Shown piece by piece: positions 13,969 to 30,818 of a DNA stretch of 64,000 nt; within the stretch, counting starts at the first letter, position 1; the number at the start of each line of letters is the position of its first letter. The DNA comes from Shouchella patagoniensis (lineage in GTDB: Bacteria > Bacillota > Bacilli > Bacillales > Bacillaceae_D): assembly GCF_002019705.1 (NCBI RefSeq), contig NZ_KV917377.1:1424565-1488564 (forward strand), written 5' to 3'. The notes below the pieces were generated by a model. That model saw only the letters and a program-made list of their open reading frames with translations. It was not told where the DNA came from and did not search any database. Position numbers and translations under genes: made by a program.

Positions 13969-13984
13969 AATGCTTTTATAACCC

Positions 13985-14051
13985 CTATGACCAGGACAAC
14001 GTAACCTCATTAGTCCCACTTGCCCCGCTCAATTCTTGGGGAGTATTAGGG
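13985..14051 (-). other. +1 frameshift site (CCC-TAA) and 20-residue C-terminal extension of the major tail protein
   Basis: The gene ends GAA ACA CCC TAA. If the ribosome slips +1 on CCC, reading continues for 20 codons (NTPQELSGAS then GTNEVTLSWS) to a TAG at 13985-13987. The ending VTLxWS is the A-B strand start of an FN3 domain and matches the extension of the capsid protein. CCC-stop +1 shifts that extend tail and capsid proteins are established for Listeria phage PSA and, at the tail protein, for Bacillus phage SPP1. Confidence 0.75.
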
Positions 14052-14648
14052 TGTTTCTGGCGCTTCCGTTTTTGATTTGTATACCTTGTTGAAGTATTCT
14101 TTTACAACCTCTTCATCAGCAGTATCAGTATCCAAAGTATGCATCATTAAACCATCATATTTACGGTCAATAAAAGTTCCTTCAAGTGTTGAGTTCTGAG
14201 GTGTAGCTGTATCTTCTTTTGTGTTGTGTTCACGGTTTGGATTAGAAAATTTACCTTTTAACAACCAAACATACCCGAATGTGCCATCAGCTTTCAGTGA
14301 TTTAAAACCAACTGCTACGAAAGGAGAAATACGGTCTTTGTGATATTCCGTACCACCCTTATCATATTTAGCACCTAATAGATCAGCTTTGACTTCATCT
14401 TTTATTCCTGATGTGGAAATTGATAAAGTAGTGGCTCCATTGCTTGAAATTACATCAAGAATACCGTCATCTGCATATTCAGGAGTATTAGTTGAACTAG
14501 GTGTTACCGATGCTGTCTTAGCAGGTGCAAGTTCTTTAATTTGACTATACACTGCTCCTTCAGCATCATCTTTGAGTAACTTTGCATAAACAAGTTCTCT
14601 TAAACCAACATAAGACTTTGACCCTTGAGTTGTTTTATTTTCTGGCAT
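14046..14648 (-). CDS. Major tail (tube) protein
   Basis: This 200-residue protein (phi13/TP901 type) forms the tail tube. The start ATG at 14648 follows GGGTGG; a GTG three codons upstream is less likely. Sequence landmarks are VGLRELVYAKLL near the start and FVAVGFKSLKADGTFGYVWLLKGKF in the centre, typical of the family. The last codons are CCC TAA, a +1 shift site (see 13985-14051), so a 220-residue minor form is expected. Confidence 0.88.
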   Translation of the reverse strand: MPENKTTQGSKSYVGLRELVYAKLLKDDAEGAVYSQIKELAPAKTASVTPSSTNTPEYADDGILDVISSNGATTLSISTSGIKDEVKADLLGAKYDKGGTEYHKDRISPFVAVGFKSLKADGTFGYVWLLKGKFSNPNREHNTKEDTATPQNSTLEGTFIDRKYDGLMMHTLDTDTADEEVVKEYFNKVYKSKTEAPETP

Positions 14649-14660
14649 ATATACCACCCT

Positions 14661-15026
14661 TTAAGTTTTAATTTGATAACGCATGATTTTTCTGATTTCA
14701 CTTTTATCCATATCATAAGATGTTCTAACATTCGCTCTTGTAAACCCTAACTTCTTGACCATCACTTTGTTAATAGAAGTAAGAAGGTCGTCTGGTGGGT
14801 TTACATCCCAAACATCAATTTGCATAAATATATGTGATGTTGAAGGTTGGTCATCTTCATAGTCCGAGTCGGAATTATCCACTTCTACGATCCTTACATA
14901 TGGATAATCATTATTCTGTGATACCGAGCGACCAACTGAGTACCTGAATACTTTTCTACCCACAGCTGAAGACACTTCTGGATCATCCCAAAGTGCCTGT
15001 TGTATTTCTCGATCTAAACTTATCAT
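14661..15026 (-). CDS. Tail terminator / tail completion protein
   Basis: This is a 121-residue protein. Its start overlaps the stop of the upstream gene as ATGA, implying translational coupling. Residues such as YPYVRIVEVDNSD and FMQIDVWD with a mixed alpha/beta layout resemble the tail-terminator proteins (gpU/DUF3168 type) found at this place in HK97-like genomes. The assignment rests on position and overall pattern. Confidence 0.7.
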   Translation of the reverse strand: MISLDREIQQALWDDPEVSSAVGRKVFRYSVGRSVSQNNDYPYVRIVEVDNSDSDYEDDQPSTSHIFMQIDVWDVNPPDDLLTSINKVMVKKLGFTRANVRTSYDMDKSEIRKIMRYQIKT

Positions 15027-15427
15027 GACCAACGCATCACTTTCTTTTGCAATTCAGTAAGCATAGCAGCTCGTATCTGTCCTTTTGTTCGTTGGGCAGT
15101 ACGTAGAATGAAGTCGTTAGGCGGCATGAATTTGGTTCCATTGACTAAGAAATTAGCACGCCAACGTGTTCCATCCTTGCCATCTGTTGGTCCTACTTCA
15201 ACAATTTTCACACCATCAACATTTTTAACCCTACCTACTCGGATATCATCAACCATATGCTTATAATCAGTGGCGCTAATGTTAGAACGAGGTACTTCTT
15301 GCTTCATTATAGGAACGGCAATATTTGCCCCTGCTTTAATGGCTGCATTCTCTGCTCTGTTAACATTGCGCCCCATCTCTTCTACTTGTTTTAATAAGGC
15401 ATCCCAATTTACAACTTCGAAACTCAT
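15023..15427 (-). CDS. HK97 gp10-like head-tail completion protein
   Basis: This is 134 residues. WDALLKQVEEMGRNVNRAENAAIKAGANIAVPIMKQE is the characteristic N-terminal helix pattern of the HK97-gp10 family, with the hydrophobic RWRANFLVNGT and PNDFILRTA segments in the middle. The ATG at 15427 has AAAGGTG upstream. It participates in joining head and tail. Confidence 0.85.
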   Translation of the reverse strand: MSFEVVNWDALLKQVEEMGRNVNRAENAAIKAGANIAVPIMKQEVPRSNISATDYKHMVDDIRVGRVKNVDGVKIVEVGPTDGKDGTRWRANFLVNGTKFMPPNDFILRTAQRTKGQIRAAMLTELQKKVMRWS

Positions 15428-15431
15428 AGGA

Positions 15432-15770
15432 TCACACCTTTATGCATTTGAGTGTAATGTACATGTTGTCTTCTGGACGATAGTCAACGTCATCAACTTC
15501 GTACAAATAATCTTTGCCGTATACTTTCCACAGCACTCTCATGCCCTTTTCAATTTCCATTGACTTCTTGCTTTGACGTATGGTCATTTCTGTGTAACCT
15601 TCAACGGTTTGTACATCATTCTCGGTTACTTGTTTTAGCTGGTTGACGAAGATGTAGGCCATTGCTTTCATGAACTTGAAATAATCTTCGACCCACATAC
15701 CATCATCATCAAAGTCACCTTTAAACTCTTGTATTTCAATCTTTTTATCAAAGTGACCAGCATTAATCAT
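15432..15770 (-). CDS. Head closure (head-tail adaptor) protein
   Basis: This encodes 112 residues from the ATG at 15770, chosen because family members (SPP1 gp16-like, PF05521) begin with M-x-x-G-x-F/L-x-x-x-I-x-I-Q, here MINAGHFDKKIEIQ. In-frame starts up to 15803 exist and the GGGGGTGAGG before one of them is ribosome-binding-like, so the start is uncertain. It overlaps the connector gene upstream by 8 bases. The protein seals the connector after DNA packaging. Confidence 0.8.
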   Translation of the reverse strand: MINAGHFDKKIEIQEFKGDFDDDGMWVEDYFKFMKAMAYIFVNQLKQVTENDVQTVEGYTEMTIRQSKKSMEIEKGMRVLWKVYGKDYLYEVDDVDYRPEDNMYITLKCIKV

Positions 15771-16062
15771 TCGGGGTGATTTTCTCAACATCCTCACCCC
15801 CATATTTGATTAAAGTAAGCATCGTATTAAGGCTAAAAGAAAGATCTTTATGCTTATCTAACGTGTAAATGCCGCGATTCTCATAGTTGTGAGATACATA
15901 GAGACATAGACAAAGCCTGTGAAGTGAATTTTCTTCATTAAATCTCTTCCCTGTGGACAGCCTAATAGACTCCTTACCTGCTTCAATCATCATTTGTATC
16001 TCTAAATCTTCTTCCTCTGATTCATCGAATACTCTTAGATACTGCTTAACTTCATTCAGCAT
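15763..16062 (-). CDS. Head-tail connector protein (gp6-like)
   Basis: This 99-residue protein, MLNEVKQYLRVFDESEEEDLEIQ, is the typical start of the phage_GP6/DUF3199-type connectors, with a helical ring-forming fold and the later segment IEAGKESIRLSTGKRF. The ATG at 16062 overlaps the end of the Ig-like gene by 11 bases. It stacks on the portal to form the neck. Confidence 0.82.
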   Translation of the reverse strand: MLNEVKQYLRVFDESEEEDLEIQMMIEAGKESIRLSTGKRFNEENSLHRLCLCLYVSHNYENRGIYTLDKHKDLSFSLNTMLTLIKYGGEDVEKITPND

Positions 16063-16531
16063 CTTCCGGATCCTCTGGTTCTGGCTCTGGTTCCGGTGGC
16101 TCCTTGACTGTGACAGTACATGTTGCGGTAATACCATCACCTGCAGTTGCTGTGATTGTAGCAGTACCAGCTTTCACACCAGTGATCGTTCGTGTGTTGC
16201 CTGATGTACTTACTGTTGCCACATCACGATCAGAAGTATTAAAGCGAACCGTCTTGTCAGTAGCATCTTCTGGCGCAACAGTTGCAGTCAGTGATTTTGT
16301 CGCCCCTTCATCCAACATCATTGTTCGTTGCGATAAAGTAACTTCAGTTACAGCAACAGGTTCGGTTTCCACAGTGATAGCTTCAGTTAGCTCCGATTCT
16401 CCTGCTTCATTTTCAGCGCTGACTTGATACTCGTAAGTGGTATTAGGCTCAAGACCCGTATCCGTGTACGTCTTTTCCGTCAAACCAGAAGCAACTTGCT
16501 CACCATTTCGGTATACGTTATAAGTAGGCAT
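16052..16531 (-). CDS. Ig-like protein: FN3 domain lacking its first two strands, plus Big_2 domain
   Basis: This encodes 159 residues. Residues 1-56 (TYNVYRNGEQVASGL, then TYTDTGLEPNTTYEYQVSAE) are strands C to G of a fibronectin type III domain; strands A and B, with the core Trp, are missing. Residues about 60-142 are a bacterial Ig-like Big_2 domain (VTLSQRTMMLDEGATKSL, then GVKAGTATITATA), and a Pro/Glu-rich tail ends the protein. The missing strands are encoded in the +1 extension of the capsid gene just upstream, in the same frame. It is probably a capsid or tail surface decoration that binds cell-surface sugars. Confidence 0.8.
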   Translation of the reverse strand: MPTYNVYRNGEQVASGLTEKTYTDTGLEPNTTYEYQVSAENEAGESELTEAITVETEPVAVTEVTLSQRTMMLDEGATKSLTATVAPEDATDKTVRFNTSDRDVATVSTSGNTRTITGVKAGTATITATAGDGITATCTVTVKEPPEPEPEPEDPEDAE

Positions 16532-16552
16532 TCATCATTCTCCTTTCTTCCC

Positions 16553-16619
16553 CTATGACCACTCCAACGTGACAGAATGACTGTCAGCGCTGGAAGTCAA
16601 TGTTTGGGGTGGGTTAGGG
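16553..16619 (-). other. +1 frameshift site (CCC-TAA) and 20-residue C-terminal extension of the major capsid protein
   Basis: The gene ends GAT ACG CCC TAA. A +1 slip on CCC gives 20 more residues (NPPQTLTSSA then DSHSVTLEWS) to TAG at 16553-16555. The sequence is the A-B strand start of an FN3 domain, with the conserved Trp two residues before the end. A possible stimulatory hairpin, TGACAG paired with CTGTCA (16570-16586), lies about 30 bases downstream of the slip codon. Confidence 0.75.
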
Positions 16620-17729
16620 CGTATCTTCTCCAAGATCAAGCAAACCGTAAAGAGAAGCATCTGGATCGGTTTGAATAACATCAAAGGACTCAATCATACG
16701 AATCATTGTTTGATTTTTCTTGAACTCAACGTGATCTGATGCATCAATAATTAAGCCTTTACGCTCAACGAATTGTGCAGATTCAGTTGTTGAACCATAA
16801 ATAACTGGCGCTTTGCCGTCCACAGAAGGGAGCTGACCATTGCTGAACACTTCAACCGGATATCCTTTGAACAACTTTTGTGTTGGTAAAGAAGGATTAG
16901 GCTGCAATAATCCGCGACCGTTTTCATCAACTTGTAGATCTAAATGGTTGAAACCATCTTGATTCGTAACAATGCGAATTGAAGAAGCGAAAGCAGGATC
17001 AATATCAACATTTAAAGACTGAACAAGGCTCTTCCAGTCACTAAGCTCTTTTGCCGTTTTTCCATCAATCAACTGTTTAAAAATAGCTTCATTCTCTGTA
17101 ATTGTCGCTTTACGTACAAACATACGACCGAGATAAGCCATCAATCCACCAGCTTCAACCTCAAGTAATTTCTTTGAAATTGGAAGCAACGCACCATAAT
17201 CTTTAACCTTGTAGCCTTTGTTCTTGAAAGAAGGTTCATCAGAGTAACCGATCTCGTCACCATCTTCAAAAGAAGCAAGACCGAGCATTGTTTTACCTTC
17301 TTCATAAACGAATGAACCGGCAAGGACATTAGTGCTGTAGTAGCTGACAAGATGACGCGCTGATTTAAATTCACGACGATATTCAGTGATTTGGTGATTG
17401 ATATCTTCTGGAATTAAGATGATTTCATTGTTATCACCTTCAGTAAGCATTGCGTTTTCAGCTTCTGTTAAATCTTTGCCGCGTAGAAATTTAAAGAAAG
17501 CTTCTGTAGCATCTGATTTTGTATCAGTTTGTTTGTTCTTATTTAAAGCAAGAACCTTACCTTCTTCATCGTCTTGAACATCAAGTAAAATGTCAAAACG
17601 AGCCTGCAAATCTTTCATTTCGTCACGAGCAGCCTTTGCTTCCTCAATCTTCTTTGAATTAGCAAGTTCACGCGCTTCTTTCTTCTTGTTTTGAATCTCT
17701 TCTAATAAATCACGCATTTCTTTCGTCAT
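16614..17729 (-). CDS. Major capsid protein (HK97 fold)
   Basis: This is 371 residues. Residues 1-65 are a long charged coiled coil (MTKEMRDLLEEIQNKKKEAR), the delta/scaffold domain removed by the prohead protease encoded upstream. The mature part has typical segments such as REFKSARHLVSYYSTN, LLPISKKLLEVEAGGL, and GLLQPNPSLPTQKLFKGYPVEVF. The stop is CCC-TAA, giving a predicted 391-residue minor form. It follows the portal and protease in standard order. Confidence 0.92.
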   Translation of the reverse strand: MTKEMRDLLEEIQNKKKEARELANSKKIEEAKAARDEMKDLQARFDILLDVQDDEEGKVLALNKNKQTDTKSDATEAFFKFLRGKDLTEAENAMLTEGDNNEIILIPEDINHQITEYRREFKSARHLVSYYSTNVLAGSFVYEEGKTMLGLASFEDGDEIGYSDEPSFKNKGYKVKDYGALLPISKKLLEVEAGGLMAYLGRMFVRKATITENEAIFKQLIDGKTAKELSDWKSLVQSLNVDIDPAFASSIRIVTNQDGFNHLDLQVDENGRGLLQPNPSLPTQKLFKGYPVEVFSNGQLPSVDGKAPVIYGSTTESAQFVERKGLIIDASDHVEFKKNQTMIRMIESFDVIQTDPDASLYGLLDLGEDTP

Positions 17730-22859: not shown

Positions 22860-23163
22860 TCGCTCTTACCTTTTCGATTTCGTTAAAGACAATTGCTAGG
22901 ATGGCTTTAGATTCTGGTTTCCAAGCATCCGGAAAGCATTTGAGATCGAATAAGTCATAACGTTGATTGCGATTCATGTTTGCAATTGCATTGTCGATGC
23001 CTTGCTTTGACTCAAGCTTAACGTCTGGGTAGCAGATCAGTTCGCACATGGTGGTTTCGTATTCGAGTTGAGTCATTGGTGCTGCTAAATCAGGTGGACC
23101 ATGTTGTACTAAAGGTCCTTTAATCTCTTCTGGTCGTTTACCGAATGAACTTGTCTCTCTCAT
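22837..23163 (-). CDS. Prophage protein of unknown function
   Basis: This encodes 108 residues overlapping the HNH gene by 23 bases and the gene upstream by 4 (ATG within the previous stop region). Segments include MTQLEYETTMCELICYPDVKLESKQGIDNAI and FPDAWKPESKAILAIVFNEI. The layout is mostly helical and no known domain is recognised. The overlaps indicate co-translation with the packaging genes. Confidence 0.6.
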   Translation of the reverse strand: MRETSSFGKRPEEIKGPLVQHGPPDLAAPMTQLEYETTMCELICYPDVKLESKQGIDNAIANMNRNQRYDLFDLKCFPDAWKPESKAILAIVFNEIEKVRANATEATS

Positions 23164-29654: not shown

Positions 29655-30818
29655 TTACAAGGAGTCTTTTAAAATTTCCAGGGCTTCTGGCTTACCTAAC
29701 TTATTGTAATTACCAAAGATTCCATTTGCACTTGCGATATCAGCAATTTGATCTAATTGTTCTTCTCCAATATTATAATCTGCAAGCTTTGAAGGTGCAC
29801 CAAGACTTGTCCAAAAAGCAGATAAACGATCAATACCTTCAAGTGCTACATCTCGGTCTTCTTTCCCTGTTCGATCAACACCAAAGACACGTTCAGCAAG
29901 TTGCGCCCCTCGTGCTGGGTTAATATCAACGCTATGACGCATCCAATGTGGGAATAAAATAGCCAAACCTCCAGCATGAGGGATATCAGAAATAGCAGAA
30001 ACCGCATGCTCTAAGTTATGCGTACCCCAATCACCTCTTGCTCCCATCTGAGTTATGCCATTGAGCGCCATCGTTCCACTATAAAGAATCGTCTCTCGAT
30101 GATCAAGATTTTCCAAGTCATCAATCAGTTCTGGACCTACCTCCATTACGGTTTGCAAAATTGATTCACAAATCCGGTCTTGGAGAGGTGTGTTTTCAGC
30201 TGGATGGAAATATGCCTCAAGCACATGACTCATCATATCAACAATTCCATACGTGGTTTGGTCCTTAGGCACAGATGTAGTATTAACAGGATCCAGAATA
30301 GAGAAGTTTGGAAATGTAAACACACATCCCCAACCTACTTTTTGATGTGTTTCCCAATTTGTAATAACAGAACCTGAATTCATTTCTGAACCGGTCGCTG
30401 CTAATGTAAGTATCGTTCCAAATGGGAGCGCATCTTCTGGAGTTTCTTTCTTCGTAATAATATCCCATATCTCTCCATCATAACGAGCGCCAACTGCTAT
30501 CGCTTTTGTTGCATCAATAACACTACCTCCACCCACAGCCATGATAAATCCAATATTGTTTTCACGGCAAAGGTCAATTCCCTTCTGTACAGTTGTTAAG
30601 CGTGGATTAGGTTCAACACCAGAGAGCTCGGTAACTGTGCAACCAGCCTGCTCGAGTTGTTGAGTTACTTTATCATATAGACCATTTTTCTTAATGCTCC
30701 CCCCACCATATACGAGTAAGACATTACGGTCGTATACAACAAGTTCATCTGCAAGCAACTCCGTTTTACCTTGTCCAAAGATTAATTTTGTAGGATTATA
30801 AAATGTAAAAGCGTCCAC
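29655..30818 (-). CDS. Iron-containing (NADH-dependent butanol-type) alcohol dehydrogenase
   Basis: This 387-residue protein resembles B. subtilis YugJ/YugK. It has the GGGS nucleotide loop ([17 protein letters not shown] near 93) and metal ligands Asp and His in [19 protein letters not shown] and [13 protein letters not shown]. It reduces aldehydes or ketones to alcohols, substrate not known. The ATG at 30818 has AAGGAGG upstream. Confidence 0.9.

Follow-up and report, generated by a model that had tools for sequence, protein, structure and literature searches.

We analyzed a 64,000-nucleotide stretch of the Shouchella patagoniensis genome (contig NZ_KV917377.1, positions 1,424,565 to 1,488,564), referred to here as the window, which contains a prophage whose genes lie on the minus strand. 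The major capsid and major tail protein genes of this prophage each carry a short 3' extension in the +1 frame that corresponds to the first two strands of a fibronectin type III (FN3) domain, and a separate gene behind the capsid gene encodes the remaining strands followed by a Big_2 domain. We refer to the extensions as tags and to the free protein as the acceptor. The features, in positions of the window, are as follows.

16614..17729, minus strand: major capsid protein gene, frame 0 (Pfam Phage_capsid, E 5.5e-22; phrog_10, E 4.8e-40).
16617..16619, minus strand: CCC codon, followed by TAA, taken as the capsid +1 slip site by comparison with relatives.
16553..16615, minus strand: capsid tag in the +1 frame (FN3 strands A and B), with 20 codons at 16556-16615 and the stop TAG at 16553-16555.
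16550..16609, minus strand: predicted RNA hairpin over the capsid tag, its base pairing CCCC (16606-16609) with GGGG (16550-16553).
16540..16546, minus strand: AAAGGAG, ribosome-binding site of the free gene as read from the sequence.
16052..16531, minus strand: free acceptor gene, 159 residues, FN3 strands C to G and then Big_2 (PHROG 341).
16361..16531, minus strand: FN3 half of the acceptor, residues 1-57, strands C, C', F and G (Pfam fn3 40-83; AlphaFold2 model).
16112..16354, minus strand: Big_2 domain of the acceptor, residues 60-140 (Pfam, E 1.7e-18).
14046..14657, minus strand: major tail protein gene, frame 0 (Pfam Phage_TTP_1; phrog_88, E 1.3e-48).
14049..14051, minus strand: CCC codon taken as the tail +1 slip site, again by comparison with relatives.
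13985..14047, minus strand: tail tag in the +1 frame (FN3 strands A and B), with 20 codons at 13988-14047 and the stop TAG at 13985-13987.
13982..14041, minus strand: predicted RNA hairpin over the tail tag, its base pairing CCCC (14038-14041) with GGGG (13982-13985).

On the minus strand, the capsid gene ends ..GAT ACG CCC TAA, and its +1 extension reads NPPQTLTSSADSHSVTLEWS before a TAG that is followed by GGG. The tail gene, which likely starts at the ATG at 14646-14648, ends ..ACA CCC TAA, and its +1 extension, NTPQELSGASGTNEVTLSWS, also runs into TAG and then GGG. As a first-pass annotation of this DNA had noted, the tail gene carries a similar tag ending in TAGGGG and there is no second FN3 half beside it; genome searches found the free gene as a single copy in the host. 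The shifted-frame 3' extension is thus present on both genes, and from relatives we infer that it is expressed.

The acceptor begins MPTYNVYRNGE and matches positions 40-83 of the 84-position Pfam fn3 profile as well as a complete Big_2 domain, in agreement with the domain assigned to it in the first pass. Its residues 2-146 align with positions 3-151 of the 154 in PHROG 341 (E 1.2e-37), a full-length match. We searched the host genome with the fn3 profile at a cut-off of 25 bits, reading through stops by design, and obtained one place in the window. This match covers positions 2-83 (42.2 bits, E 3.6e-10) across two TGA and one TAG codons, compared to 28.1 bits for the acceptor alone. FN3 (PF00041) is therefore covered from strand A to strand G by the tag and the acceptor jointly and not within one chain, so that the two together make up one domain, divided within the B-C loop, which bears out the proposal that the capsid extension and the next gene are FN3 halves. 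The extension is 20 residues long and not a whole immunoglobulin (Ig)-like domain, the remainder being in the separate gene. Searched alone against Pfam, neither window tag gave an fn3 match; in a set of ten tags, five matched fn3 positions 2-22 (E 0.0014-0.068). The AlphaFold2 model of the window acceptor (mean predicted local distance difference test, pLDDT, of 94) shows strands C, C', F and G and the Big_2 domain. Fold comparison of the whole model returned mostly Big_2 matches, the best viral model being a homologue in phage SP-QS1 (template modelling score, TM, 0.78), and among the solved structures searched no chain spanned the complete acceptor.

Next, we looked for the arrangement in viral contigs, 299 genomes of the order and phage records, with one viral-contig search represented by its best 80 of 341 matches. 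In the order, 83 of the 299 genomes gave a match, most with Big_2 alone in long proteins. Relatives among the viral contigs have a different capsid protein followed by the same tag, stop, ribosome-binding site and free gene, and the same split occurs on different capsid genes in relatives of the same genus and order and in Staphylococcus, Enterococcus and Carnobacterium phages. A profile of the FN3 half collected 74 open reading frames (ORFs) in 41 clusters at 90% identity, and in 40 of these the ORF starts within 10 residues of strand C. The sole exception, L126, is the weakest match at 16 bits; it had been flagged as a fused FN3 homologue and was rejected, since its upstream match is not tag-like. 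The first pass had named homologues with an uninterrupted FN3 frame as a possible refutation, and no fused homologue was found in the ORFs of the loci collected here. It had also remarked that the tag and the free gene share a reading frame. This is true in the window and is incidental, because the free gene of locus L020 is out of frame with its tag and the spacers of relatives differ.

A strict pattern for shifted tags matched 54 of 341 ORFs (of at least 150 residues) in 39 acceptor loci and 2 of 664 ORFs in 82 control loci, a contrast that is to be read as a description rather than a clean test, and to that extent counts against us, because the pattern was written after the tags had been seen and the controls were scanned on both strands, the acceptor loci on one. 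The stricter pattern had been adopted because a looser one matched 26 of 685 control ORFs (84 loci), three of these matches being tags in L088 and L098, which had been fetched as acceptor relatives. Shifted tags by the strict pattern are found in 33 of the 39 acceptor loci (one, L063, is a false hit); the tag-stop-gene order that the first pass suggested seeking in related phages is conserved. At least two ORFs bear them in 21 loci, those of L030 being copies of one gene. Six loci lack a strict match. In two of these, L086 and L104, the loose pattern picks up tags that lie in frame, and the tags of L026, L126, L136 and phage 812, together with that of L063 (in another gene), are visible only by eye. 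Of the 64 ORFs that fit the loose pattern, 22 are assigned to phrog_10 (capsid) and 23 to phrog_88 (tail); four that match Dit are false hits. By these matches, tag bearers are mostly capsid and tail proteins. The split FN3 system extends beyond this prophage to many viruses of Gram-positive bacteria.

Many phage records name members of the acceptor family (PHROG 341) "major tail protein" and some "chitinase". Judged by domain content, the acceptor is an Ig-like protein and not a tail tube protein. The acceptor of Enterobacter phage BHUENT5 shares 99.3% identity with its counterpart in Enterococcus phage BC611, and the host label may be mistaken.

The tag is reached by three routes. The +1 route, mostly at CCC-UAA or CCC-UAG, is found in this phage, in Staphylococcus phages and in others; a -1 route is found in Enterococcus phage BC611, L103 and L112; and in L086, L104 and gp151 of Kayvirus 812 the tag lies in frame and needs no shift. 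The head cement protein gp151 of 812 ends SEPSAPKNVQVTPKEDGADVSAE. Since the +1, -1 and in-frame routes all yield the same tag, conservation of the peptide itself extends to cases that require no slip. A chain of PDB entry 9rox matches residues 2-175 of the 210 of gp151 (L147, 8337-8969), and the tagged end is absent from that chain. The part at hand of a paper on the 812 neck (PMC12886913) makes no mention of Ig-like or cement.

The two genes after gp151 encode further parts of the same kind. The first, gp152, is an acceptor with a tag-like stretch at its own end, and the second, gp153, is a bare 75-residue FN3 half, so the gene order gp151-gp152-gp153 reads as a putative in-frame daisy chain. 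Tandem acceptors were noticed in the pair L085 and L086. In L086 (7204-8942), a structural gene with an in-frame tag is followed by two acceptors, the first of which ends in a tag for the second. Several staphylococcal acceptors also end in their own tag, and the AlphaFold2 model of the L090 acceptor has a confident body and a disordered end tag (pLDDT 46-61), which may be free to donate.

Two further phages show variants. Staphylococcus phage vB_SauS_IMEP5 (L030, 566-3672) has its tail gene, tag and acceptor duplicated in tandem, the first acceptor being shortened to 83 residues, little more than its FN3 half. In Enterococcus phage EH93P1 (L148, 3099-4465 and 6180-7444), the tail gene is tagged with an acceptor behind it, and the capsid gene ends in an A run overlapping a Big_2 gene, where a slip could fuse whole Big_2 domains. 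Both solutions, split tag and whole Big_2 fusion, could thus exist within one phage.

The RNA that encodes the tag has a structure of its own. By eye, a predicted hairpin is found in 42 of 44 distinct +1 cassettes, the exceptions being L148 and L149. It begins five to seven bases past the CCC codon, has the tag-coding stretch as its stem, and pairs at its base a C run with a G run at or just behind the tag stop. Compared to random synonymous codings, 30 of 31 cassettes are stabler than the mean, with a median z of -2.35. Across 19 cassettes, two-sided changes in this structure number 59 versus 24.8 ± 3.8 in shuffles and the covariation score is 0.394 versus 0.157 ± 0.019 (reached in 0 of 500 shuffles, and at most 0.198 when slid), a contrast with the shuffles that is inflated by the relatedness of the cassettes. 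One of five measures, the number of pairs with a two-sided change, was weak (12 versus 10.1; 40 of 500 shuffles as high). In eight further cassettes, six of 17 pairs have two-sided changes. Thus, the tag-coding stretch doubles as a covarying hairpin behind CCC-UAA, a feature that is new here. The first pass had taken the common stop point of two unrelated genes as an argument against chance decay. Decay is indeed rejected below; the shared end TAGGGG is explained by the CCCC..GGGG pairing of the RNA, and not only by a break in the protein.

Listeria phage PSA uses +1 frameshifts on its cps and tsh genes (PMC5009743; here and below, cited papers are represented by the parts at hand). The CCC before the stop with RNA structure behind it gives the window genes the layout of a PSA-type +1 site, at which frameshifting would occur by analogy. 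PSA shares the CCC slip site, and its tsh gene (L032, 7285-7335) has a CCC UGA followed by a CCCC..GGGG hairpin like those of the tag cassettes. In contrast to the tags, the PSA extensions shown lack an FN3 A-B tag at their end, and the stop is not TAGGGG. The tsh hairpin without an FN3 tag suggests that the RNA device may predate the tag or be of more general use.

It could be argued that the RNA hairpin alone is selected, as a frameshift signal, attenuator or terminator, with the tag as a by-product and the free Ig-like protein acting by itself. The hairpin covaries and sets the common end, as this explanation would have it. In some relatives, T runs stand behind the hairpin, so that a terminator or attenuator role is possible too, and the acceptor is modelled confidently without the tag. 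However, gp151 of 812, L086 and L104 carry the tag in frame where no slip is needed, other phages reach it through -1 sites, the tag peptides keep the FN3 A-B signature, and tags accompany the acceptor gene. We consider this explanation unlikely, while noting that it survives better than the other alternatives below.

Published masses of staphylococcal phage particles, determined by matrix-assisted laser desorption/ionization (MALDI), allowed the state of the proteins in virions to be considered (PMC5923470). For the free Ig-like protein of phages 3A, 42E and 47, calculated masses of 15,855 and 15,871 compare to found values of 15,857 to 15,875, and gp151, gp152 and gp153 of Kayvirus K1/420 are listed at 23,070, 17,718 and 7,819. 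The masses that we computed for the unlinked, full-length acceptors and for gp151, gp152 and gp153 agree with the listed values. Signals common to six Triavirus phages include 15,871, 23,295 and 25,208, and the last is absent from the masses that the table of that paper assigns. The tagged +1 tail product of phage 47 is predicted at 25,205.7, close to the 25,208 signal, and the 23,295 signal is the short, untagged tail protein, with a listed 11,645 lying 3 below the prediction for its doubly charged form. A capsid peak at 30,373 was considered as evidence for a tagged capsid protein and set aside, since it fits the untagged form cut after residue 113 (30,375.8). The virions of these relatives thus hold the free protein and the tagged tail protein as separate chains, a conclusion drawn in part from our own assignment of a peak.

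SpyTag and its catcher are a short tag and an Ig-like catcher that become linked by an isopeptide bond. The layout of a short tag and an Ig-like partner is alike, and a covalent bond of this type could join tag and acceptor. On the masses at hand for relatives, however, the acceptors, gp151, gp152 and gp153 of 812 and the 25,208 peak all fit unlinked chains, which makes such a bond very improbable.

Decay, in which a whole frameshifted FN3-Big_2 extension was broken by mutation and its second half kept by chance, would suit the single frame of the window tag and free gene with three stops between them, but we regard it as barely credible given that 40 of 41 clusters are broken at the same point, on capsid and tail genes that differ and with spacers of different frame, and given the free protein in the virions of relatives (as far as the mass data at hand go). 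A second recoding event, by read-through or bypass, that fuses the tag and the free gene into one long protein is equally far-fetched, since against the shared frame in the window and the conserved stop context TAGGGG stand the out-of-frame gene of L020, the lack of a free gene behind the window tail tag and relatives' masses (in the data at hand) that fit separate chains.

From the tags, the split, its conservation and the hairpin, all observed here, we infer that docking by strand complementation is the best explanation, as yet unproven. It is supported by the matched halves, the fixed break, the co-occurrence of tag and acceptor, the slip-free tags and the separate chains in virions. We therefore propose, with good though incomplete confidence, a two-part virion display in which recoded tags on capsid and tail proteins are met by a free acceptor that docks non-covalently. 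Some ribosomes at the CCC-UAA that ends the capsid or tail gene would slip by +1, probably helped by the hairpin just downstream, and the slip would add the 20-residue tag of FN3 strands A and B. Strands C to G and the Big_2 domain would come from a second protein, made by normal translation, which would dock on the tag without a covalent bond to complete the FN3 fold. One small protein could thereby decorate both head and tail, with the slip rate fixing its copy number, and the staphylococcal acceptors that end in their own tag could form chains. The purpose may be surface binding, following proposals in a review (PMC8718954).

A covarying feature of the two halves would be consistent with contact between them. 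The partner acceptors of Trp-bearing tags have an aromatic residue at one strand-F position in 0 of 13 cases, versus F, W or Y at that position in 20 of 27 for tags without Trp (Fisher p 1.3e-5, L126 left out), a large-for-small pattern that comprises two independent pairs (five with weak branches) on a tree of the Big_2 part, too few to give the paired test power. Several other points weigh against docking on recoded tags. The acceptor is modelled at high confidence without strands A and B and may therefore be stable alone. The listed 12,598 lies 5 below the prediction for the doubly charged tagged tail protein, and 25,208 is one value for six phages, with phage 3A predicted at 25,245.8 and no separate value given. 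The tagged capsid mass is not among the masses listed in the part of PMC5923470 at hand. For another staphylococcal phage, QT1, the authors of one study consider that virions lose an Ig-like tail domain by cleavage (PMC6950010).

Phages SPP1, A2 and T3 are known to add Ig-like extensions by frameshifting (PMC5009743, PMC8718954). In SPP1 gp17.1*, a frameshift appends FN3 to the major tail protein (PMC8718954). As in our phage, a frameshift at the end of the tail gene gives FN3 sequence to part of the subunits. By its description, SPP1 has the whole FN3 in one chain, whereas strands A and B alone are added here, and the remainder is a separate protein that would also serve the capsid. Lactobacillus phage A2 uses -1 frameshifts on its capsid and tail genes (PMC5009743) and is alike in that both are recoded to carry Ig-like sequence. 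It differs in that the shifted frames of both A2 genes read a whole Big_2-like domain, with no split. The first-pass annotation knew of no described split of this kind, and in open-access papers we likewise found no description of an added domain divided between a recoded tag and a free protein. The hairpin behind the common end, the acceptors with their own tags and the breadth of the system are added by the present analysis.

In the donor-strand complementation of pili, an incomplete Ig-like fold is completed by a strand from another chain, and head-to-tail chains can result. By analogy, the phage system would also complete a split Ig-like fold across chains, and head-to-tail chains are possible. 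It differs in that two C-terminal strands are donated, partly via recoding, by shell and tail proteins, and we know of no chaperone or usher for it. In a wider reading, half-FN3 tags would be one side of a widespread natural tag-and-catcher system in which the tag RNA is the frameshift stimulator, one free half-FN3 protein docks in trans on head and tail, and tagged acceptors polymerize by donor-strand exchange into surface whiskers, a kind of virion pilus. We put the chances of this wider reading at even, because polymerization is read from sequence alone.

Frameshift-made Ig-like extensions on heads and tails have previously been without a clear logic. A split domain would act as a plug, such that the structural genes would need no more than a 20-residue tag, and the surface domain of both head and tail would come from one exchangeable protein. 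The RNA is dual-coded, the hairpin also encoding what would be the docking strands, and the pair of tag and acceptor may offer a natural tag and catcher for protein engineering. The proposal also offers a reading of an unassigned virion mass peak, and assigns a testable function to proteins that many records file under "major tail protein".

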